In this document: piece after piece, positions 15,569 through 62,079 of the stretch | How positions within the stretch are numbered: the first letter of the stretch is position 1 | Layout of the letters: every line of letters starts with the position of its first letter | Assembly: GCF_000376945.1 (NCBI RefSeq) | Contig: NZ_AQXU01000024.1 | Coordinates: 186,001 to 250,000 of the forward strand | Length of the DNA: 64,000 nucleotides | Source of the DNA: Leeia oryzae DSM 17879 | GTDB taxonomy: Bacteria > Pseudomonadota > Gammaproteobacteria > Burkholderiales > Leeiaceae | Reading direction: 5' to 3' | Program-made: the position numbers and the translations under genes | The notes under the pieces: generated by a model | What the model was told of the DNA's origin: nothing | What the model saw: only the letters and a program-made list of their open reading frames with translations | Databases searched by the model: none

Positions 15569-16219
15569 TTAATGCCGGGTTTTTGCACGTGCCAAGTCGA
15601 GTAATTCACGGTGCAACTGGTCTATCAGGGCATGCAGTTCGGGCACGCTACCCTGGTTCAGCAATACCTTGTCTGCCTTGGCTATTCGCGTGGCGCGCGG
15701 CGTCTGGGCGGCCATAATGCGCTGTACTTCATCAGCCGTTAAACCGGAGCGCTGCATGACACGGTCGATCTGCAATTCTTCCGGACAATCCACTGCAATT
15801 GCCAAGTCAAGTAAGTCGGCATAATGCTGGTTTTCAAACAGCAACGGAATGACCACGACAACATAATCAAATACGCCACGACCTGACTGTATTCTGTCGA
15901 ATACAGTCATTTGGATCATGGGGTGAAGAATTCGTTCCAGCTGATGACGTTCTGCCGGGTTCGAAAAAACCAGCTGTCGCATTTTGGCTCTGTCCATTCG
16001 TCCATCATCGGTGATGTAGGCCGGGCCAAACGTCTTGAGGATTTCCGGAATCGCCAGACCATTCGGCCCGGTCAGTTCATGGGCAATCGCATCCGTATCG
16101 ATGACTTGTACGCCTAGCTGCTCAAAATAAGATGATGCGGCACTTTTTCCGGATCCAATACCGCCGGTTAAACCGACCAGCAGTTTGTGGGTATTGGCCG
16201 CAATGTGCTTGGAGGTCAT
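15569..16219 (-). CDS. coaE: Dephospho-CoA kinase
   Basis: CoaE phosphorylates the 3'-OH of dephospho-CoA, the last step of CoA synthesis. The 216-residue protein has the P-loop GLTGGIGSGKS (16-26), DTDAIAHELT for the substrate, and PLLFENQHY. The preceding step enzyme, CoaD, is encoded at 31163 in the same window but in another operon. It starts 3 bases after pilD and is part of the pilBCD-coaE-zapD-yacG transcript, a common arrangement that links envelope and metabolic genes. Confidence 0.96.
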   Translation of the reverse strand: MTSKHIAANTHKLLVGLTGGIGSGKSAASSYFEQLGVQVIDTDAIAHELTGPNGLAIPEILKTFGPAYITDDGRMDRAKMRQLVFSNPAERHQLERILHPMIQMTVFDRIQSGRGVFDYVVVVIPLLFENQHYADLLDLAIAVDCPEELQIDRVMQRSGLTADEVQRIMAAQTPRATRIAKADKVLLNQGSVPELHALIDQLHRELLDLARAKTRH

Positions 16220-51207: not shown

Positions 51208-51450
51208 AAGTTACTCCGGAGCAATATTGAAAGTGGATGACAATTTTACAGACATGGTGCGACCTAGCCAAGTTATTGAATTGTAAATAATAGTTTTTTT
51301 CATGGTTTTGTCATTTAACAACAGTTATTGGCAGATATTGCCATATCAGCAGGGTGTTTTCATGTAGTTTCATGACAAATAAATTTTTGATTGACGGCAT
51401 AATGACATGTGTATATATTGCGCATCTTTTGAAAATACAATGTCATAAAT
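51208..51450. other. Divergent mlaF / secretin regulatory region
   Basis: 243 bases, AT-rich from about 51280 onward compared with flanking genes. It contains a strong plus-strand promoter (51391-51419) and four copies of ATGACA/TGTCAT (51309-51314, 51372-51377, 51402-51407, 51441-51446). The mlaF promoter on the other strand must lie near 51220-51290 but is not clear. Confidence 0.6.
51391..51419 (+). promoter_or_regulatory. Promoter of the MSHA-like operon
   Basis: TTGACG (51391-51396) and TATATT (51414-51419) with exactly 17 bp between them, about 31 bases before the secretin ATG. An ATGACA hexamer (51402-51407) lies inside the spacer and another TGTCAT (51441-51446) in the leader. Confidence 0.7.
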
Positions 51451-53211
51451 ATGAAGTCGTGTGCGGTACGCTTAACATCTGCTGCGGTGCTCATGCTGCT
51501 CCTGAGTGGCTGTGCGTCGCAGTCATTGCCTGTGGTCGATGGGCATCCTGCCCCTGCTACGGATATGCCATTAGCGCCGACATCATCAGCGATGCCTGAC
51601 ATTGTTGGTCCCAAGCCACAACCTGTGATCCAGCAAGAACGCATGAACGTGATTGTCAGCAAGGCCCCGGTTCATGATTTGCTGTTTGCCCTGGCGCGTG
51701 AAGCAAACATGAATGTAGACATCCAGTCAGGCGTTGATGGCCTAGTCACCCTGAATGCTATCGACCAGACCTTCCCGCAAATTCTGGCCAGAATCTCAGA
51801 ACAAGTCGATATCCGCTATGGGTTAAAGCATGGAACCCTGGTGATCGAGCCTGATACCCCTTTCCTGAAAAATTACCCCATCGATTATGTCAATCTGAGC
51901 AGAACGGCAAAGGGAGATGTGTCCATCTCGACGTCGATTGCCAGTCCCGGTAATGCTGGTGCAGCCAGTTTGAACAGTTCATCCACCGTCCTGACCAATA
52001 CAGTCGAGCATAATTTCTGGCGGACGCTGACGGAAAATGTCCAGGCGATATTGCGGGAAGAGGATCGCCTGGTTGTGGTCAGCCGGGCTGTGAATACCAA
52101 CCCGAGTGGTTCCAACAGCACAGCCAGTACACAAGCAGTGCCGGTGGGCAGTTCCGGGGCAATGCAGGTTCAGGCTGCAGCGGCACCGGCCAATCAGGAG
52201 GTATCAGTCAATGAGCGAGTCGTCAATGTGATCGCTAGCCCTGAAGGTGGGGTACTGGCTGTGAGGGCAACGGCCAGACAACACGAAAAGGTAAAGGCTT
52301 TCCTTGACAAGGTCATGCAAAGCGCGGGCAAGCAGGTGCTGATTGAAGCGACAATTGTCGAAGTGCTGCTGTCTAACGACTTCCAGGCCGGGGTGGACTG
52401 GAGCCGTTTGATGCAAGGCGGCAATGGATTCGGCATCTCGCAGCAACTCTCTGCTGGCAGGCTTTCTGCGGCGCCTGCTACTACGCTGACGTATAACAAC
52501 AAGGATAACGCGCTGTTTTCCGGGCAGTTCTCGGCCACTATCCGTTTGCTCGAGTCGTTTGGCAAAACCAAGGTGTTGTCCAGCCCCAAGGTCATGGCCC
52601 TGAATAATCAGACGGCTTTGCTGAAGGTGGTGGATGAGAAGGTGTATTTCACAGTCACGCTGGATGAATCCCATAATGACAAAGGCGATATTACCGACCG
52701 GAAATATACCAGCGCCTTGCATACCATTCCTGTCGGCGTGGTCATGAGTGTAGTGCCGCAAATCGGTGAGGACGACCAGATTACGCTCAATATCCGTCCG
52801 ACCATTTCGAGAATCACCGGTTACAAAGCCGATCCGGTGCCGCAATTGATGAATGCCAGTTTCCAGAATCTGGTACCGGAAATCCAGATGCGGGAAATGG
52901 AGTCCATCCTGAAGGTGCCTAACGGGCAAACCGTTGTACTGGGCGGGCTGATGCAGGACGAACTGATTTCTCAGAAAGATGGTGTGCCGCTATTAAGCCG
53001 TGTGCCCTGGATTGGTGACTTGTTTACCTATCAGAGTCAGACCAACACCAAAAGCGAGCTGGTGATTTTCTTGCGTCCGATGCTGGTCAATGGCGGGTTG
53101 AAACCCTCGACGCAGGCTGGTTATTCATCATTATTGCCTGACGCCAATTCCCTGGCCTCCCCTCAAGAGGTGCGCTCTCCTTCGACTATATTGTTTCCGG
53201 AGGGATCATGA
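51451..53211 (+). CDS. mshL: MshL-type pilus secretin lipoprotein
   Basis: A 586-residue outer-membrane secretin. It has a signal peptide with lipobox LLSG-C21, an N-terminal STN-like domain (about 65-130; NVIVSKAPVHDLLFALAREA), a Ser/Thr/Ala-rich linker (about 200-250), a secretin N1-like domain (ASPEGGVLAVRATARQHEKV) and the C-terminal secretin core (about 290-550) with VLSSPKVMALNNQTALLKV and VPNGQTVVLGGLMQDE. The order matches MshL of the MSHA pilus rather than PilQ or GspD. It opens the operon; its stop overlaps the next ATG (ATGA). Confidence 0.85.
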   Translation: MKSCAVRLTSAAVLMLLLSGCASQSLPVVDGHPAPATDMPLAPTSSAMPDIVGPKPQPVIQQERMNVIVSKAPVHDLLFALAREANMNVDIQSGVDGLVTLNAIDQTFPQILARISEQVDIRYGLKHGTLVIEPDTPFLKNYPIDYVNLSRTAKGDVSISTSIASPGNAGAASLNSSSTVLTNTVEHNFWRTLTENVQAILREEDRLVVVSRAVNTNPSGSNSTASTQAVPVGSSGAMQVQAAAAPANQEVSVNERVVNVIASPEGGVLAVRATARQHEKVKAFLDKVMQSAGKQVLIEATIVEVLLSNDFQAGVDWSRLMQGGNGFGISQQLSAGRLSAAPATTLTYNNKDNALFSGQFSATIRLLESFGKTKVLSSPKVMALNNQTALLKVVDEKVYFTVTLDESHNDKGDITDRKYTSALHTIPVGVVMSVVPQIGEDDQITLNIRPTISRITGYKADPVPQLMNASFQNLVPEIQMREMESILKVPNGQTVVLGGLMQDELISQKDGVPLLSRVPWIGDLFTYQSQTNTKSELVIFLRPMLVNGGLKPSTQAGYSSLLPDANSLASPQEVRSPSTILFPEGS

Positions 53212-53876
53212 GTGCAGTTGGAGACGATCGTCGTCCGGTTGTTAAGACAGAGATGAATCAGGCGTTACCCGCATGGGTACGGCCATCTGCCAGTGGGTGG
53301 CAAATGTCACGGCCGTTTTTGGCCTACGGTATTTTGTTGTTGGGTGCAGGCGTGGGTATTGGGTGGTTCTGGGCCGATTGGACGGAAATGATGGGGCTAT
53401 CCACTCATGATGCGCACCAGACCGTTACTGCAGTTATGTCATCAGTAGTCAATCCTCAGCCTACGGTGGGACTGATGCCTGTTACCAAGGCTACGCAGCC
53501 GGTGAGTGGAGACGCATTTGCAGGCATCTCGCTAACAACCGAAGTGTCCAATACTTCGCAGAGCTTGCCTGCCACAAACGACTGGGTGCATGTTTTATCA
53601 CGGCAAGAGCGTGCACATTACAAACAGCATACGCCACTTTCCACTTTGTTTGCTGCGTTTGCTGAGCGGGCCGATGACATATACAGCATGTCAGCCATCC
53701 CGGAGATGAGTGAAGAAGCGATACCCCGTGAAGTGGTGCAAACGCATTGGTGTGTTCACACCGGTCGGCCGGATGAGGCATGGGTGGTTTTGCCTTCCGC
53801 TATTTCCAGCGTATCTGAGGCGGGGTCTGATAGGGTAAGTCGCAATGACGGGGAGCTTGACCGCCATGGTTGCTAA
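53208..53876 (+). CDS. Bitopic membrane protein of unknown function in the MSHA-like operon
   Basis: I do not recognise this 222-residue protein. A 35-residue polar start is followed by one hydrophobic segment (PFLAYGILLLGAGVGIGWFW, about 36-55) and a periplasmic, Thr/Ser/Val-rich part, then a small region with SRQERAHYKQHTPLSTLF. The layout, with a short cytoplasmic part, one span and a periplasmic tail, recalls MshN or GspC/PilP-type linkers without visible similarity. It overlaps mshL by 4 bases and the ATPase gene by up to 32. Confidence 0.75.
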   Translation: MSAVGDDRRPVVKTEMNQALPAWVRPSASGWQMSRPFLAYGILLLGAGVGIGWFWADWTEMMGLSTHDAHQTVTAVMSSVVNPQPTVGLMPVTKATQPVSGDAFAGISLTTEVSNTSQSLPATNDWVHVLSRQERAHYKQHTPLSTLFAAFAERADDIYSMSAIPEMSEEAIPREVVQTHWCVHTGRPDEAWVVLPSAISSVSEAGSDRVSRNDGELDRHGC

Positions 53877-55560
53877 TGATGATCAGCGACTGGGCGGGAA
53901 ATTATTGCAGCAAGGTGTGCTGACAGCCGATCAGCTGGGTATTGCCTTGAAGGAGCAGCAGCATTCCGGCTTGTTGCTGGGACAACAACTGGTGCATCTG
54001 GGGTTCGTGACTGACACGGCCATTCAGCAGGCACTGGAAGCGCATTTGGGTCATAAAGTGATTTTGATGCTGGACCGGGTCGTTGCGGATAATGACGCGC
54101 TGGCCCTGGTCCCGGAAGAGCTGGCCAGACGTTTAAAGGTATTCCCATTAAGTTGGGACGTGGCCAGCCAGGTACTGGTGCTGGCCATGCAGACCCCCTC
54201 AGACGTCATGGCCCAAGACCTGATTCAATCTCGGCTAGCACGGCCTGTCATTCTGGATGTCTATCAAGCAGCTGCATCAGATATTTTGGCCGCTATCGAC
54301 ATGCATTACGGTAACCAGAATTCTGTAGATGACATTGCTGATGAATTGGAACACAACGTATCGCATGATGTCTCTGGCCCCCTTTCCGAACAGCCCGTTG
54401 TAAGGTTGATTGATGCATTCCTGATGGATGCCGTGCGGTCACGGGCATCGGATCTGCATTTTTCGCCAGAGCAGGGCTTTATCCGGGTGCGCTACCGGAT
54501 TGACGGTGTGCTACAGCAAGTCAGGTGTTTGCACAAGCGTCATTGGCCGGCCATGCTGGTACGGCTAAAAGTCATGACTGACATGAATATTGCGGAAACC
54601 CGGGCCCCTCAGGATGGCCGGATGTCCATGCTATTGCTGGGGAGAATGGTGGACTTCCGGGCATCCGTTTTCCCGACCCGACATGGCGAAAATGTCGTGT
54701 TAAGGGTACTGGATCGCTACAAAAAGCAATTGTCCCTATCCATGCTGGATGTGCCGGACTATCCCGAGTCGCAGCTAAAGGCGTTATTGCGACAGGTGAA
54801 TGGGCTGATTCTCGTTTGTGGCCCCACGGGCAGCGGAAAAACCACCACCTTGTATGCCATGCTGGGCGAGCTTAGCCATATGGGGGTGCATATCATGACC
54901 CTCGAAGATCCTGTGGAATATCCGGTGCCCTTGATTCGGCAAACGTCGATCAGCGATGCCGTCAAACTGGATTTTGTTTCGGGGATCCGTGCCATGATGA
55001 GACAAGACCCGGACGTGATGCTGATTGGTGAGGTGAGGGATGATGAAACTGCCGCCATGTCTTTTCGGGCAGCGATGACAGGGCATCTGGTGCTGAGTTC
55101 TTTGCATGCGCATTCGGTTGTGGGCGTGATTGCCCGCCTCAAAGAGCTGGGTATCAGCCATGCCGCCATGGCAGGGCAAATCAAAGGCATTATTGCTCAG
55201 CGTTTGTTACGCAAACTCTGCCCTGTCTGCAAAACCGGTTATACCGCAAATGAAGATGAAATAGCCGCATTGGGTGTGTCGGGCGAGGGCGCTAGTCCAG
55301 TTTTGTTCCGTGCTGTTGGTTGCAGGCAATGCCACGGTACCGGCTATCAGGGGCGGTTTCCCTTGATGGAAGTCTTGATCATGGATGACGAGCTGGCTGA
55401 ATGCCTGGAGCAGCAGGTCAGCCAGCTTCATCTGCATCGGATTGCTGTCAAGAAGGGCATGCAGACCTTGGCACGGCAGGCACAGTCCGCTGTGCTGCAC
55501 GGGCTGACCTCGCTGGAAGAGGCATCCCGTGTGGTGGTGATATACCAAGGGATGGTGTAG
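53845..55560 (+). CDS. mshE: MshE/GspE-type assembly ATPase with MshEN domain
   Basis: A 571-residue secretion/pilus ATPase. Residues 15-38 read RLGGKLLQQGVLTADQ then LGIALKEQ, followed by LGQQLVHLGFVTDTAIQQAL at 45-64, the two 24-residue motifs of the MshEN cyclic-di-GMP-binding domain. The ATPase core has the Arg-rich VRYRIDGVL, Walker A GPTGSGKT (326-333), MTLEDPVEY, Walker B DPDVMLIGEVRDDETA and the His box SSLHAHS; a zinc knuckle CPVC ... CRQCHGTGYQGR follows. It is a paralogue of PilB at 18376. ATG 53845 (AGGG 9 bases upstream) and ATG 53866 (GGGGAG 10 bases upstream) are both possible starts. Confidence 0.88.
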   Translation: MTGSLTAMVANDDQRLGGKLLQQGVLTADQLGIALKEQQHSGLLLGQQLVHLGFVTDTAIQQALEAHLGHKVILMLDRVVADNDALALVPEELARRLKVFPLSWDVASQVLVLAMQTPSDVMAQDLIQSRLARPVILDVYQAAASDILAAIDMHYGNQNSVDDIADELEHNVSHDVSGPLSEQPVVRLIDAFLMDAVRSRASDLHFSPEQGFIRVRYRIDGVLQQVRCLHKRHWPAMLVRLKVMTDMNIAETRAPQDGRMSMLLLGRMVDFRASVFPTRHGENVVLRVLDRYKKQLSLSMLDVPDYPESQLKALLRQVNGLILVCGPTGSGKTTTLYAMLGELSHMGVHIMTLEDPVEYPVPLIRQTSISDAVKLDFVSGIRAMMRQDPDVMLIGEVRDDETAAMSFRAAMTGHLVLSSLHAHSVVGVIARLKELGISHAAMAGQIKGIIAQRLLRKLCPVCKTGYTANEDEIAALGVSGEGASPVLFRAVGCRQCHGTGYQGRFPLMEVLIMDDELAECLEQQVSQLHLHRIAVKKGMQTLARQAQSAVLHGLTSLEEASRVVVIYQGMV

Positions 55561-55562
55561 CC

Positions 55563-56765
55563 ATGCCTGTTTATCATTATCGTGCACTCAATGCGGGGGG
55601 GATGGTTGTGCGCGGGCAGTTGCATGCCGACACGCGACACGCACTTGAAGCCTATCTGCAAGCTGCCGGACTGGATGTGCTATCGGCCCGCAGAGCCTGG
55701 GTCAGCAAGTACAGTTTCAGGGGGTATCAGACCCTGAAGGTGGATGTATGTACTTTCCTGTTTCATCTGCAACGCATGCTGGATGCCGGCATACCCTTGC
55801 TAGCGTCGCTGGCATTATTACAGTCTCAAGCGTCTCCTGTGTTAAGTAGCAAGATTCTTTGTGTCCGGCAACGGGTAGAAAGTGGCGATCAGCTATCGAC
55901 TGCGCTACACAAGTCTATTGCGCATATGGATGCTGTCACGATTGCGTTGATCCATGCTGGCGAGCAGGGAGGCCTGCTAACGAGCCTGCTGCTTCTGGCC
56001 GCCCGCCGTTTGCAAGCGCAGGAGAACCGCAGGCGCCAGTTGCTGACCCTGCTCTTGTACCCTCTGCTGACACTGGTGTTGACAGGAATGGCTCTTCTCG
56101 TGCTGTTGATAAAGGTGGTACCCGAATTAGCCCTCTTTTTAAGAAATCTGCAGATACCAGCCCCCTGGTACACACAGGGATTGCTCGGATTGTCGGGCAT
56201 GATTGTGACCCATGGTGTCACGATCATGATCGTTTCAAGTGTATTACTACTGGTGCTGGGGGCTGCGTATCTGATGTTCCCCGTGTGCCGTCTATGGGTG
56301 GCTCATGGTGCTTTGAAGGTCTGGATACTGGGAAAGCTTAATCAAAAGGTCCAATTATCAAGATTCATTCATGCGCTGGGTGCTTTGTATGAGGCAGGTG
56401 TGCCCTTGCTGGATGCATTGGGCACCTCGCTGGCGGTTGTGACGAATCCGGTATTGAAGACCGGGTTGGCAACAGCCAGACATTCCATTGTGCAGGGCAT
56501 GGGGTTGGCACAAGCCTTTGCTGGTGCAGGTTGTTTCCCTCCCTTGATGCGAGAGATGCTGCATGTTGGCGAGCAGACGGGCACATTAGCCAGCGCACTT
56601 CAGCATCTGCAGGCACTCTATGAGCAAGATATTCAGGCCACCGAGGCCAGACTGTTGGCCTTGATACAGCCCACTATCATGGTTCTGCTGGGTGCCATGC
56701 TCGGCTGGATGTTGATGGCAGTGTTTGGCGTGATTTATGACAACCTTGACCGCATGGTGCTGTAG
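55563..56765 (+). CDS. mshG: MshG/GspF-type inner-membrane platform protein
   Basis: A 400-residue platform protein with the family N-terminus YHYRALNAGGMVVRGQL and two GspF domains (about 60-185 and 260-390; CTFLFHLQRMLDAGIPLLASL and FIHALGALYEAGVPLLDAL), with three membrane segments. ATG 55563 lies 2 bases after the ATPase stop and gives the normal N-terminus; the frame is open upstream but only as a shadow of the ATPase gene. It partners the ATPase at 53845 and is a paralogue of PilC. Confidence 0.88.
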   Translation: MPVYHYRALNAGGMVVRGQLHADTRHALEAYLQAAGLDVLSARRAWVSKYSFRGYQTLKVDVCTFLFHLQRMLDAGIPLLASLALLQSQASPVLSSKILCVRQRVESGDQLSTALHKSIAHMDAVTIALIHAGEQGGLLTSLLLLAARRLQAQENRRRQLLTLLLYPLLTLVLTGMALLVLLIKVVPELALFLRNLQIPAPWYTQGLLGLSGMIVTHGVTIMIVSSVLLLVLGAAYLMFPVCRLWVAHGALKVWILGKLNQKVQLSRFIHALGALYEAGVPLLDALGTSLAVVTNPVLKTGLATARHSIVQGMGLAQAFAGAGCFPPLMREMLHVGEQTGTLASALQHLQALYEQDIQATEARLLALIQPTIMVLLGAMLGWMLMAVFGVIYDNLDRMVL

Positions 56766-56767
56766 CA

Positions 56768-58219
56768 ATGGCACACTGGTATTTGCTGAGCGATGAAGCA
56801 GGGATGCAGGTATGGCGAAAACAGCATGCCAACATGCAGCAACACGCTTTTTACCCGGCGGATGATGCAGGCATCACCTCGTTCCGCTTTTTCCTGAACA
56901 CACATGCACGTGACCGGTTTAGCTGGTTATTCGAGACAGCACAAGAGACCGTGCATCATGAACGCCTGCCGGCAATTGCCAGAAAACTGGCCACCCGGGT
57001 GTTAAACAGGCGGTTGCTACAGCGTTTTGCCACTGCAACCTATCGGATGAGCATTCTGCAGCAACCGTTCCTCACTGCAGATCACCAATGGTTGGGGCAA
57101 TTATTGGTACTGGAAGAGGAGGGGGGCTTAGCACCCTGGGCAGCGTTGATTCAGGCATCCGCCATTCAAGTGGATACCATGCAGTCCGTATTTGGTGTGA
57201 TGGCAAGGCCAAAGCTGCCTGTGCCGGTACCGTCGCATAGGCATGCGGTCTGGGTCGTGATGGAGAACCGCTATCTTCGCGTGCTTGTATATAGCGATGC
57301 CGGGTTGTTGTTGATCCGTAAATTACCAGCCAGTCTCGTGCAGGAACATACCAAGCTGGGTAAAGAAATTCAGAAAACCTGTGATTTTGCCTTTCAACAG
57401 GCAGGCATTGCCACCATAGCGGATGACGTGCCGGTATTGGTCTCTCTGGAAAGTGTGCGCGCCGCAGAAAGCCGGTTTGTGTTTGAGCAGTTAGGGTGGC
57501 AGATTGATGATCGACCGACGACCGGCCTGACGCCGCTTATGCTGCATGCGTTGGCTGACCTGCAAAACGAGCCGGGTTTTTTACCGGATGTTGCCAAGCA
57601 GATGCGCAAGCACAAGCAAGTGAAGCAACAACTATGGTGTGCTGCTGCTGCGCTCTTGCTCGTCCTGCTATTGGTCTCTGGGTTTGTCTATCAGCGTAGT
57701 CATGTCAAGCGCTACGAGCAAACGCGGCTTGAGCACGATTATGCAAGGCTGCTGACTCAGCCTGAGAGCAAGATCGCCTTGTTGGCCCCTGATAATGTTG
57801 ATGTTGCCCAAGCCCAAGCGGTTGTTCAGACCGCGCGATTGTTAGCGCAATGGCCTGAACCTGCTGACATATTAACCAGGCTGAGTCAGGGAATTGCTGC
57901 TTTTCCCTCTATCCGGCTTGACGAAATCAACTGGCAGCTTGGGGTGGCAGACAAATTGCATACGTGGCCGCCACAGCAGATGAGTCTGGTGTTGCAGGGG
58001 CATTTTGTCGATGTTGCTTCAGATCTGACTGCGCATAATGCGCAGGTGGTCGGGTTGCAGTCGGCATTGTCTCGTCTCTTTCCCCAGACCAGCATCCTGA
58101 TACTGAAATGGCCAGTGGATACCGGGTCCACGGTTGAAATTTCTAATGAAGCACTGCATGGAGACACAGCAAACCGCTTTTCCATGCAGCTAAACCATCC
58201 ATTGATCAGCCGCAAATGA
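56768..58219 (+). CDS. PilM/PilN- or GspL-like assembly protein of the MSHA-like operon
   Basis: A 483-residue protein with one membrane span at about residues 290-309 (WCAAAALLLVLLLVSGFVY). The first 280 residues are cytoplasmic and contain beta-alpha patterns with VWVVMENRYLRVLVYSDAGLL (in parts: HAVWVVMENRYLRVLV, YSDAGLLLIRKLP) that could be an actin-like fold; the last 170 residues are periplasmic, starting with a helical linker. This is the layout of GspL, or of PilM joined to PilN. I see no decisive motif, so the role is inferred from architecture and from its place between the platform gene and the PilO-like gene. Confidence 0.7.
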   Translation: MAHWYLLSDEAGMQVWRKQHANMQQHAFYPADDAGITSFRFFLNTHARDRFSWLFETAQETVHHERLPAIARKLATRVLNRRLLQRFATATYRMSILQQPFLTADHQWLGQLLVLEEEGGLAPWAALIQASAIQVDTMQSVFGVMARPKLPVPVPSHRHAVWVVMENRYLRVLVYSDAGLLLIRKLPASLVQEHTKLGKEIQKTCDFAFQQAGIATIADDVPVLVSLESVRAAESRFVFEQLGWQIDDRPTTGLTPLMLHALADLQNEPGFLPDVAKQMRKHKQVKQQLWCAAAALLLVLLLVSGFVYQRSHVKRYEQTRLEHDYARLLTQPESKIALLAPDNVDVAQAQAVVQTARLLAQWPEPADILTRLSQGIAAFPSIRLDEINWQLGVADKLHTWPPQQMSLVLQGHFVDVASDLTAHNAQVVGLQSALSRLFPQTSILILKWPVDTGSTVEISNEALHGDTANRFSMQLNHPLISRK

Positions 58220-58839
58220 AACGACAGGCCACAGTCATCTCATGTTTGCCCGTGATTGCGAGTCTGGTTGTGCTTGCGATTTGCTTGTGCGCAGTCATCG
58301 GTTATGGGGCCTGGTATCAGACCCGTATTGATGAGCGAATGTCTGGCCTCAGAGTGCGCATAAAGGCGATTCAGTCTGCCCGGCTGGAGGCGAAGGCTCG
58401 CCAGCAATGGCTGCTGGCGCATCAGGGGGAGCTGAGCCGCTTAAGCAGTTATGGCTGGATGAGGCCTGAGTCACGCACCCTGTGGCTGCAACGGCTGGAT
58501 CACTGGCAGGTACAGCACCCGTATGCACAGCTTGAGTACCATCTTTCTCCCAGACAGCCCGTGTCAGAAGGAGGGCTGGGAGGTTGGCAACCCGTCTTTA
58601 CCCGCATGTCGGTATCCCTGCAGATTGTGCAGGAAGGGGAATGGTTTGACTTTCTGGATGCTATCCGCGGGACGGAAGGTACTGCAAAGGTGCATCAATG
58701 CCAGTTGCAGCGGCATGCGGCAGAAGAGAGGACGGCCTCCGAGATGGATGCACCTACCCTCTCTTTACATTGTGAAATTGACTGGTTTGGCGTTGAACGG
58801 TTACCCGCCAAGACCGGCACGCAGGAAGTCCTTCCTTGA
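58216..58839 (+). CDS. PilO/GspM-like protein
   Basis: A 207-residue bitopic protein: short basic start, one membrane span (about 11-32, PVIASLVVLAICLCAVIGYG), a periplasmic coiled coil (about 36-75; RIDERMSGLRVRIKAIQSARLEAK in parts) and a small alpha-beta domain with FTRMSVSLQIVQEGEWFDFLDAI, the pattern of the PilO/GspM ferredoxin-like fold. The symbol is left open because the similarity is structural. Its ATG overlaps the stop of the upstream gene (ATGA). Confidence 0.72.
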   Translation: MKRQATVISCLPVIASLVVLAICLCAVIGYGAWYQTRIDERMSGLRVRIKAIQSARLEAKARQQWLLAHQGELSRLSSYGWMRPESRTLWLQRLDHWQVQHPYAQLEYHLSPRQPVSEGGLGGWQPVFTRMSVSLQIVQEGEWFDFLDAIRGTEGTAKVHQCQLQRHAAEERTASEMDAPTLSLHCEIDWFGVERLPAKTGTQEVLP

Positions 58840-59264
58840 GGCAGAAACATCATTCCGTTAAAAGCCTAATGGTTATTGTTTGGGCAAGCATGCTGGCGGG
58901 ACAACTGTTTGCCAGTCCGTTGGGAACATTGGTCTTTTCTGCCGAAGAGCGGCATGCCGTGCTTGCGGGGCGTAGTCATGAGACGGCATCAGGGCAGATT
59001 GTCCATGTTGCAGGCATGATCCAGATACGGCATCGCCCAAAAAAATTATTGTTGAACGGGCAATGGATATCTGCTGGTGAACAAGCGACAGAGGATGTGG
59101 TGATCGAGCCAACAGGAGGTCGTCTGGTGCGGGTGATACACAAGCGTGCAGAAAAAAAGCAGGGGATCTATACGCTAAAAGTCGGCCAGCACCTGGATAT
59201 GGCCAATGGCCGTGTTCAGGAAGGCCCGCCGCCTGAGGATAAAGCTCGGCAGGCTATGCCATGA
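58836..59264 (+). CDS. PilP/MshK-like periplasmic protein
   Basis: A 142-residue protein with an N-terminal signal or anchor (LMVIVWASMLAGQLFASP) and a small beta domain: LGTLVFSAEERHAVLAGR followed by VHVAGMIQIRHRPKKLLLNGQW, typical in order (ER-x-x-L-x-x-R, then G-x-I-x-R ... W/L-x-N-G) for MshK/GspC-HR-like proteins. They bind the secretin and link it to the inner-membrane parts. The start is TTG 58836, with AGGAAG 7 bases upstream and overlapping the previous stop (TTGA); ATG 58869 is the alternative. Confidence 0.65.
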   Translation: MRQKHHSVKSLMVIVWASMLAGQLFASPLGTLVFSAEERHAVLAGRSHETASGQIVHVAGMIQIRHRPKKLLLNGQWISAGEQATEDVVIEPTGGRLVRVIHKRAEKKQGIYTLKVGQHLDMANGRVQEGPPPEDKARQAMP

Positions 59265-60439
59265 GTATACGTTGCAAACACCTGCGGGGGGCCGTATTGC
59301 TGCTGATGTGCATGGTGTGGCTGGTTTTGCTGGCCGGCTGGTGGCTCATGCACTGGCAGCAAAGTGCAACCGTGATGCATGGTATCCGTCAACAGCAATC
59401 GCATTTGCAACACATCAAGCAGAGTTTGCTCGATGCCATGGCATCCGATGATGCTGGGTCAGTGCTGGGCAGCGCATTTGCCCCGGACATTTTGCTGAAT
59501 GGGTCATCACATGGCATCGGTGATTATGGTGTCTGCCTGGATGCCCTGGCTGCGGATGGTTTGCCTTATGCAAAGTATGGTATCAATGCCACGGCTTATG
59601 CGGGCTTGCGCTGTATCGGCCGATTACCAGTCCGGGATGTCAGGATACCGACGACGTCAGGCATGTGGCAAGGCGACCCGACCGGGGAGTCGATCTGGTA
59701 TGCCGTATCCCCTAATTTGCTGGATGTGGCGAGTGACCCGGCCTCACCAGGCGGGGCTTGTCTTGATTTCCTGAATGCAGACATCTTGAGTCAACCTGCA
59801 GGGACTGCCATATGCCAGCATGGCGCGTTGCCTTATCCTTGGTTAGTCATTCGTGATACGAATGGCAAGGTGATTAGCGATCAGGTCGCCATGATTCTGA
59901 TCGCGCCTGGTCGTGCTGATGCACCAAGGACATCTCAATGGACCCAGCTTAGCCGCTCCATACTGTCGCAGTATCTGGATAACATCACCATTGGGGCTGG
60001 GCATGCATTCATGGTATCGGGGCACTATGACAATGCGGCACTCACTTTGAGCCTGATTCAGGCGCCCATCAGCCGGGATGATGCTTCATCCGCATTGTAT
60101 GAGTCACCCTATCGGTTCAATGATCAACTGGTCTGGATTACCCGTCAGGAGCTGGTGGATCGATTGGTGTGGCATGTGGTGCAGGTACTGGCACATGACC
60201 TGAACTATCCATATCCGCCTTTTCGCCCGCCGCTGGATACGCTGCACCCGTCCGCACCAGGAAAAATCAACCGCTGGACTCGCCTGGAAAGGCATTGGGG
60301 CTATACCTTCCGCTATCAAAAACTTACAGATGATCACGTTCAGGTGCAGTTATCCGGATGCCAAAGCGAGTTTGATCTTGTGTACGTTGCGGCCGGCAGT
60401 CAGCCATATACCCAGATAAGGAGAACGGGGCCATGTTGA
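59261..60439 (+). CDS. GspK/PilX-like large minor-pilin candidate
   Basis: A 392-residue protein starting IRCKHLRG-AVLLLMCMVWLVLLAGWW. The R-G followed by a hydrophobic helix resembles a prepilin leader, but position +5 after the glycine is Leu, not Glu. GspK, the large tip pseudopilin of type II secretion, also lacks Glu5 and is unusually big, so a GspK-like role is plausible. The large C-terminal part has at least six cysteines that may form disulfides. It overlaps the previous stop (ATGA) and the next gene by 7 bases. Confidence 0.6.
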   Translation: MSIRCKHLRGAVLLLMCMVWLVLLAGWWLMHWQQSATVMHGIRQQQSHLQHIKQSLLDAMASDDAGSVLGSAFAPDILLNGSSHGIGDYGVCLDALAADGLPYAKYGINATAYAGLRCIGRLPVRDVRIPTTSGMWQGDPTGESIWYAVSPNLLDVASDPASPGGACLDFLNADILSQPAGTAICQHGALPYPWLVIRDTNGKVISDQVAMILIAPGRADAPRTSQWTQLSRSILSQYLDNITIGAGHAFMVSGHYDNAALTLSLIQAPISRDDASSALYESPYRFNDQLVWITRQELVDRLVWHVVQVLAHDLNYPYPPFRPPLDTLHPSAPGKINRWTRLERHWGYTFRYQKLTDDHVQVQLSGCQSEFDLVYVAAGSQPYTQIRRTGPC

Positions 60440-61260
60440 GATATGCACAGGTGTCCGGTAGGTGTCGTTTGGGACGCTGCCGCTCAGCGGGCTTTTCTTT
60501 GCTGGAACTCGCGATTGTTCTGCTGGTAATCAGTATCCTGACAGCGGGAGCCTTGCGGCTATTGGGCACCATGAATCAAAACCGTCAACAGGATGAAACC
60601 CGTCAGCGATTAGACATTGCACGCATTGCTGTACTGGATTATGTGGCGTTATATGGTCAATTGCCTTGTCCTGCCTCTGCCGCTAGTGCGGGTCAGCCAG
60701 ATGTGGATGCCCAAGGACATTGTACGCATCCTTACGATGGTTTTTTACCCGCAGCGGCCTTGGGAATTAGTGGTGTTGATGGTCAGGGCTTTATAGCGGA
60801 TGCCTGGGGGCAGACAGCCAATCGTGTCCGGTATGCCGTGGCGGTCAATGCTTTTTCCGGCGCAGTTTCTTGTCTGTCTGCACCCGGCAGCAATTATGCC
60901 GGACTATGGACGGCGAACCGACAAGCCTCGCCAAATCTGGCGTCCAATTTTTATCAGGCCACACCACTTTTACCCGAGTTATGCGTATGTAGTACCGCGA
61001 GTTGTTCACCATCCGCTACCTGGCTGGCACCAGGCGTAGCGGTGGTTCTGTATTCGACGGGTGGTAATGCGCTTGCAGGGGGTAAAAGCAAGGATGAAGC
61101 TCAGAATCCGAATCAGAATGGAGGAAGCGCAGACCGTATCTTTGTGTACCACGCACCGACAATGGCAGGGACGATTGGTGGCGAATTTGACGATCAAATG
61201 ACCTGGATTTCATCGGCGGAAATTTATGGCCGCATGTTAATGGCAGGGCGTTTGCCCTGA
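60433..61260 (+). CDS. Prepilin-type protein, cysteine-rich
   Basis: A 275-residue type IV prepilin. The leader ends SAG20 and the mature protein begins FSLLELAIVLLVI with the conserved Glu5, so PilD should cut after Gly20. An N-terminal helix continues to about residue 80 (RQRLDIARIAVLDYVALYG), then a globular part with six cysteines (LPCPAS, GHCTHP, VSCLSA, ELCVCSTASC). It is longer than a standard major pilin (about 150), so a minor or adhesive pilin is likely. It is the ninth and last gene of the tightly overlapping series. Confidence 0.85.
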   Translation: MLRYAQVSGRCRLGRCRSAGFSLLELAIVLLVISILTAGALRLLGTMNQNRQQDETRQRLDIARIAVLDYVALYGQLPCPASAASAGQPDVDAQGHCTHPYDGFLPAAALGISGVDGQGFIADAWGQTANRVRYAVAVNAFSGAVSCLSAPGSNYAGLWTANRQASPNLASNFYQATPLLPELCVCSTASCSPSATWLAPGVAVVLYSTGGNALAGGKSKDEAQNPNQNGGSADRIFVYHAPTMAGTIGGEFDDQMTWISSAEIYGRMLMAGRLP

Positions 61261-61285
61261 CAGGATAGCTTGCCCTTCTTCTAAT

Positions 61286-61330
61286 TTGACGCATGATTTG
61301 TTTCTTTATAAAATGACATTGTCATTTTAT
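61286..61330 (+). promoter_or_regulatory. Promoter with overlapping 23-bp palindromic operator before the last prepilin gene
   Basis: TTGACG (61286-61291) and TAAAAT (61309-61314) with 17 bp spacing form a near-consensus promoter. A perfect inverted repeat covers 61308-61330: arm ATAAAATGACA, one central T, arm TGTCATTTTAT. It overlaps the -10 and the expected start point, the classical place for a repressor. The half-site TGTCAT recurs in front of the operon at 51309-51446. Confidence 0.75.
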
Positions 61331-61347
61331 GGTTGGGTGAAAAATCA

Positions 61348-62079
61348 ATGCGGTACAAATGTTTAGAGCGACTGAAACCATATGCCTCATATACCGGTTT
61401 TACCATGGTCGAGATGGCCATCGTACTGGTGATCATGGGGCTGCTGCTGGGTGGTATTCTCAAGGGGCAAGCAATGATCAATAATGCCAAGGTCAATAGC
61501 CTGATCGCTGATGTTAAAGGCATCCAGACAGCTTTCCTTGCATTTCAGGACCGCTACCATCATGTACCGGGGGACTGGGATCAGGCCAGTACGGCAATAC
61601 CCGGGGCCGTTAATTGCAGCAGTAACTGCAATACCGGCGCGATTGATACGGCACAAAAATCCGTGCTGGCATTTAATCACCTCAGTGCCGCAGGGTTTCT
61701 GGCGGGAGATTATAGCGGGGCAGGGGCGATCAATACGGCGGCAAATTCACCCGTAAACCGCTGGGGTGGCGTCATGCAAATTGCGTTTGACGGAAACTAT
61801 GCGACAGCCACTGCGACCAGTGGAAATACGCCAAGGCACAACATCAAAACCGGCAACATGATGCCGGTGAGCGTGCTACGGGAGCTGGATACCAAACTGG
61901 ATAATGAAAGTCCGGTGTCGGGTGGCTTTCGCTTCAGTGCTTGGTCCTCTGGTTCTACTGCGCCGGCTGTGGCTGGGGCGGGTGGCTGCACGACGAATGG
62001 GGCAGCGGCAGATTCTCTCTGGGATGCAGGTAATACCTCTGCGGCCAGTAATTGCGGTGGTGCCCTGCTATTGGACTGA
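61348..62079 (+). CDS. Prepilin-type protein with its own promoter
   Basis: A 243-residue type IV prepilin. The leader of 17 residues ends SYTG17; the mature chain starts FTMVEMAIVLVIMGLLLGG with Glu5. The segment FQDRYHHVPGDWDQA follows the N-terminal helix and recalls pilins of large size; four cysteines (NCSSNC, GGC, SNCGG) are near the ends of the globular part, which is rich in Ala, Gly, Ser and Asn. A GGGTGA sequence precedes ATG 61348. Its separate promoter suggests that this is the major or the most strongly regulated subunit of the cluster. Confidence 0.87.
   Translation: MRYKCLERLKPYASYTGFTMVEMAIVLVIMGLLLGGILKGQAMINNAKVNSLIADVKGIQTAFLAFQDRYHHVPGDWDQASTAIPGAVNCSSNCNTGAIDTAQKSVLAFNHLSAAGFLAGDYSGAGAINTAANSPVNRWGGVMQIAFDGNYATATATSGNTPRHNIKTGNMMPVSVLRELDTKLDNESPVSGGFRFSAWSSGSTAPAVAGAGGCTTNGAAADSLWDAGNTSAASNCGGALLLD

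Follow-up and report, generated by a model that had tools for sequence, protein, structure and literature searches.

Organization of the pilus locus

The 64,000-nucleotide stretch of Leeia oryzae DSM 17879 DNA analysed here (the window) carries an MSHA-type pilus operon (Table 1). Two model matches above their cut-offs identify its type: the secretin matches the MshL model TIGR02519 at 271 bits (cut-off 250), and the operon ATPase has the MshE-type c-di-GMP motif (NF053729, 45.5 bits; cut-off 38). In the MSHA locus of Vibrio cholerae, the pilin genes follow the assembly genes and form a second operon (PMC4624765). The MshL secretin, the MshE ATPase with its c-di-GMP-binding motif and the placement of pilins after the assembly genes are common to both loci, whereas in the present operon an internal promoter is predicted just for the last prepilin gene, and in the congener G002 that gene has none.

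The two prepilin genes are separated by an 87-bp gap, the last one most likely starting at the ATG at 61348. Within the gap lies a sigma70-type promoter match comprising a -35 hexamer, TTGACG (61286-61291), a 17-bp spacer and a -10 hexamer, TAAAAT (61309-61314). It agrees with the consensus in 10 of 12 letters and is the best of five promoter-like matches between 53000 and 62700, a region in which the scan overall was not enriched (7.9 matches in shuffled sequence). We recognized no regulator in the operon, five proteins of which remained without a match in the model libraries scanned; this agrees with the first-pass annotation, which had been made from the sequence and had reported no regulator encoded adjacent to the last prepilin gene.

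Table 1. Coordinates of the features at the pilus locus (window numbering)
Feature	Position	Strand	Remark
Half-site ATGACA	51237..51242	+	
Half-site ATGACA	51309..51314	-	doubles as the first hexamer of a promoter match on the minus strand
Half-site ATGACA	51372..51377	+	
Operon promoter match, sigma70-type, TTGACG-17-TATATT	51391..51419	+	consensus match only; one ATGACA in spacer
Half-site ATGACA	51402..51407	+	within operon promoter spacer
Degenerate dyad AAATACA-A-TGTCATA	51433..51447	-	3 mismatches to AATGACANTGTCATT; just 5' of start codon
MSHA-type pilus operon	51451..62079	+	MshL-type secretin, MshE-type ATPase, GspF-type protein, family-less proteins, two prepilins
First of the two prepilin genes	60433..61260		
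Internal pilin promoter match, sigma70-type, TTGACG-17-TAAAAT	61286..61314	+	consensus match only
Palindrome	61308..61330		ATAAAATGACA-T-TGTCATTTTAT
Last prepilin gene	61348..62079	+	243 aa; N-terminal methylation motif; PF07963 20.4 bits (cut-off 21.2)

A perfect palindrome on the predicted internal promoter

The gap also contains a perfect 11-1-11 palindrome of 23 bp, the centre of which (61319) lies 5 nt past the -10 hexamer, approximately at the start point of the promoter. The first-pass annotation had described a perfect 23-bp palindrome with arms complementary around one T, beginning on the last base of the spacer, overlapping the -10 TAAAAT and passing the probable transcription start of a TTGACG-17-TAAAAT promoter. 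Sequence and register were confirmed, the promoter was recovered as a consensus match, and its start is predicted near the dyad centre.

We then asked how readily such a palindrome would arise by chance. Under the base composition, palindromes with arms of at least 11 and a spacer of 1 are expected 0.016 times per window and 0.95 times per 3.785-Mb genome; a first-order Markov model of the local DNA gave P = 2.2e-4 for arms of at least 11 and a spacer of 0-3 in an 87-bp gap. The inverted repeat therefore exceeds chance locally, though about one is expected genome-wide. A 942-kb sample of the genome held 13 palindromes with arms of at least 11 and a spacer of 0-1 (0.49 expected), namely the pilin dyad, four to five terminator-like structures, the operator-like TTATAGAACG..CGTTCTATAA (twice) and five in open frames. 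The palindrome is unusual for the window, and its rarity by itself is no proof of function; long palindromes exceed chance in this sample, yet the dyad alone is still compatible with a chance origin.

The genome-wide search for the motif that the first-pass annotation had proposed placed the 23-mer, at up to 3 mismatches, at a single position in its own genome (G000). Matches occurred in 3 of 60 genomes, its own included, and the other two carry 2 and 3 mismatches. Besides the query and its reverse dyad, a search of G000 with a 96-bp stretch returned only five short fragments of 14-27 nt; a repeated or mobile element was rejected, since the genome holds no further full copy. A viral origin was likewise rejected (0 exact matches in viral_contigs), and the plasmid search gave one 32-nt match (E 0.3). 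Literature searches covering openly licensed PMC papers listed none that presents the palindrome as a pilus-gene operator.

An alternative is that the dyad acts in RNA, as a hairpin with a 10-bp stem in transcripts reading through the operon, where it would mark a boundary for RNA processing or stability ahead of the pilin frame. The 23-mer does fold at -7.0 kcal/mol with a z of -4.5. This z falls to -1.3 in sequence context, however, and the A-U-rich stem is weak by comparison with terminators in the window (-20.1 and -18.1 kcal/mol). An intrinsic terminator was rejected, as the dyad has no G+C-rich stem followed by a T run and is not among the 9 matches of the scan; Rfam returned no match for the palindrome. 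Moreover, because the predicted start lies at about the dyad centre, a transcript from the internal promoter would contain just one half of the dyad and so lack the hairpin, and a hairpin leaves the half-sites before the operon, described next, unexplained. We regard this alternative as improbable.

Half-sites cluster upstream of the operon

Within the 243 bp preceding the operon there are five copies of the hexamer ATGACA or its complement, against 0.27 expected (Poisson P 9.7e-6); the fifth copy (51441-51446) sits inside the degenerate dyad. ATGACA is the most repeated hexamer of this region, and the remaining five arm hexamers occur 0 to 2 times each, so that P is approximately 6e-5 after allowing for six words. 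Among 232 sampled intergenic gaps this region has the highest ATGACA count, none of the others exceeding three, and a hexamer of any kind reaches five copies in just 3 of the 188 gaps no longer than 350 bp. The half-site thus recurs at a promoter functionally linked to that of the last prepilin gene. Four half-sites near L097:1744 were examined as a further candidate and explained as a terminator and a coding start.

The core recurs at two other promoter-like sites

The core TGACANTGTCA is present six times in G000: three copies are intergenic and overlap promoter-like sites, and three lie in open frames, the latter counting against an operator. Upstream of a DUF4124 gene (C20:125464; 22.9 bits, cut-off 22), the sequence TATAATGACAATGTCA has its dyad centre 5 nt beyond the -10, a register identical to that at the pilin gene. 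The third intergenic copy, TTGACATTGTCATT (C25:588073), precedes a MORN-repeat gene, where TATGAT follows TTGACA by 16 nt and the core covers the -35.

The MORN-gene site is kept in the congener G002. The MORN proteins of G000 and G002 are identical at 288 of 558 aligned positions (52%), and the region upstream of the G002 orthologue also contains TTGACATTGTCATT, with TATGCT at equal spacing. This 14-nt word is the longest common to the two 160-bp upstream regions (at most 11 nt in 300 shuffles), the flanks having diverged; the -35 accounts for six letters of the conserved 14-mer, not for the next eight. At 23 loci beyond the genus, where more distant relatives of the MORN gene lie and start codons were assigned mechanically, TTGACATTGTCATT was not found. 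As for the other core matches in relatives, four of five in G002 lie in open frames, and the three inspected of the four in G001 comprise one intergenic, one in an open frame and one at a frame edge. The MORN-repeat gene itself (L127:2312-4015, on C25) has a conserved C-terminal part and adjoins a LuxR-family (GerE) gene in G000.

Enrichment of the dyad as a whole was assessed against permuted arms in the 942-kb sample, omitting stretches of contig C14 that had been picked for their matches. The 15-bp dyad showed no general excess, with 4 matches against 2.5 at up to 2 mismatches, and 7 intergenic matches against 5.3 at up to 3 mismatches. Two apparently stronger results were set aside. A reversed-pattern control gave 24 sites against 5 in G000, but a pattern with a 4-nt spacer showed a like excess (234 against 87); as the excess persists with that spacer and vanishes against permuted arms, the control is biased. 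A count of 4 against 0.05 at 1 mismatch came from a sample that held the C14 stretches picked for matches. We inspected 21 of the 24 G000 sites with up to 2 mismatches: most 2-mismatch sites lie in genes, and all four sites with 0-1 mismatch are intergenic, three of them on C14 near unrelated genes.

These data bear on the possibility that a palindrome without a binding protein happens to lie on a promoter and that the upstream ATGACA repeats are unrelated to it. The genome-wide expectation of about one such palindrome, the uniqueness of the 23-mer and its lack of conservation at the last prepilin gene (see below), and the unenriched dyad in the 942-kb sample are all in keeping with chance. 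The local P of 2.2e-4, the half-site cluster before the same operon (P about 1e-5) and the retention of the dyad's core at the promoter of the MORN gene argue against it. On balance we consider chance unlikely, though a somewhat more serious contender than the hairpin.

The palindrome at the last prepilin gene is not conserved

The family comparison covered three species (G000, G001 and G002); a genome_contigs scan added a single distant relative, which was left out. G002 is the one congener that has the operon; it is syntenic, with the same gene order, and its last two genes are 6 bp apart, leaving no room for a promoter or a palindrome. G001 has a pilin match at E 9.6e-4 only, no convincing orthologue, and the neighbouring gene is absent. 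Among 30 upstream regions, its own included, the dyad was found in its own region only. Absent conservation had been named in the first-pass annotation as an outcome that would speak against the palindrome, and on this point the expectation was disappointed: the core is kept at a different gene, that for the MORN-repeat protein, and not at the orthologous one. Judged from the genomes compared, the promoter and dyad at the last prepilin gene are peculiar to this species.

Two ATGACA copies lie upstream of the G002 operon, one of them likewise at the start codon, as part of a dyad with 3 mismatches. When compared with shuffled sequence, such dyads are marginal in the two operon upstream regions (P 0.059 and 0.045). 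Separately, the G002 region has a perfect dyad, CATATTGACATCAATATG, over its TTGACA (L107:4866-4883), a distinct candidate operator in the corresponding position.

Comparison with known regulatory sites

Dimeric-repressor operators at -10/+1 of sigma70 promoters resemble the palindrome in having an equal-armed, perfect inverted repeat on the start region and half-sites at other promoters; they differ in that the candidate site here has no regulator encoded beside it. The PilR (TGTC) and Pho-box motifs, compared by eye, presumably do not apply, as flanks and spacing do not fit.

A more specific possibility is that an OmpR-family response regulator binds the palindrome as a shifted site of the CusR/HprR type. 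E. coli CusR prefers the sequence AAAATGACAAnnTTGTCATTTT (PMC11195947), and the CusR/HprR box has 9-nt arms, AAAATGACA and TGTCATTTT, identical to those of the pilin dyad, and likewise few targets (PMC11195947, PMC8249747). The arms of that box are separated by 4 bp rather than 1, which changes the helix face, and the genes differ. We rejected a canonical CusR box because the arms lack the 4-bp spacing and no exact ATGACANNNNTGTCAT is among the G000 matches listed, the best of which has 1 mismatch; no metal genes were seen adjoining the sites. A binder of this type seems very remote to us.

The core TGACATTGTCA of the E. coli matS consensus GTGACATTGTCAC, the MatP site, is identical in the pilin dyad, whereas the outer G/C positions of the consensus are A/T here (PMC8669397). 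MatP was rejected: PF06303 has no match in G000, with a working positive control in E. coli, and the matS core is not enriched in G000 (23 against 14 in the control). An NrtR site was also considered. In G001, a perfect palindrome, TTAGTTGACAATGTCAACTAA (L153:1618-1638; C1 ~1022417), lies between the gene for an NrtR-like Nudix regulator and a divergent gene (names given by eye), and this dyad has its core in common with the pilin palindrome. The G001 NrtR-like protein has no close homologue in G000, where it gave only a weak match (E 2.8e-9; 37% identity across 113 residues within a longer frame), and the reading was dropped. The palindrome is operator-like, and these comparisons assign it to no named regulator's site class.

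A candidate operator for a dimeric regulator

A dimer bound over the -10 and +1 occupies the classic position for repression. Our preferred reading, held with moderate confidence, is that the palindrome serves a dimeric regulator as its operator, and that this protein probably represses transcription from the internal pilin promoter and has a second point of action at the promoter of the operon. A homodimeric DNA-binding protein recognizing the half-site core ATGACA would bind the palindrome, covering the -10 and the start point of a promoter dedicated to the last prepilin gene. The bound dimer would most likely block RNA polymerase, and its release, presumably on a signal, would yield extra pilin transcript. 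The same protein would probably act at the main promoter of the operon through the half-site cluster (51237-51446), in which case a single regulator could couple the supply of pilin with that of the assembly machine.

The first-pass annotation had called this the ideal position for a dimeric repressor. Its placement over the -10 and start stands, as does a likely dimer site; we infer repression rather than activation from that placement. The dimer site draws support from the half-sites clustered upstream of the operon and from TGACANTGTCA at two other promoter-like sites, one of them kept in the congener, while the missing conservation at the pilin gene and the lack of a general excess of the dyad count against an operator. 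The cluster before the operon and the two other promoter-like sites are new here.

More tentatively, an undescribed ATGACA regulator may exert two-tier control over the MSHA-type pilus, through a half-site array at the operon promoter and a perfect dyad at an internal pilin promoter specific to this lineage. Its 11-bp core operator would be common to the MORN-repeat and DUF4124 genes, making up a small cell-surface regulon; we hold this broader scheme to be possible but doubtful.

To our knowledge, little has been worked out about how MSHA-type pili are regulated outside Vibrio-like bacteria. The palindrome is a well-defined bait of 23 bp that comes with a predicted second promoter and a small number of other candidate targets, so that a single experiment could suffice to isolate the regulator; the recurrence of its core word upstream of the whole operon and at other promoters adds to its usefulness. 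The predicted internal pilin promoter is present in one species and absent in its congener.

Other palindromes

Two near-identical perfect palindromes in G000, TTATAGAACGATCGTTCTATAA (L075:3283-3304, on C25) and TTATAGAACGTACGTTCTATAA (L125:14428-14449, on C21), probably represent the operator of a different, multi-target regulator. The window itself contains a further inverted repeat, TGACTGTATTC-TGTC-GAATACAGTCA (15884-15909; arm 11, spacer 4), located within a called open frame.
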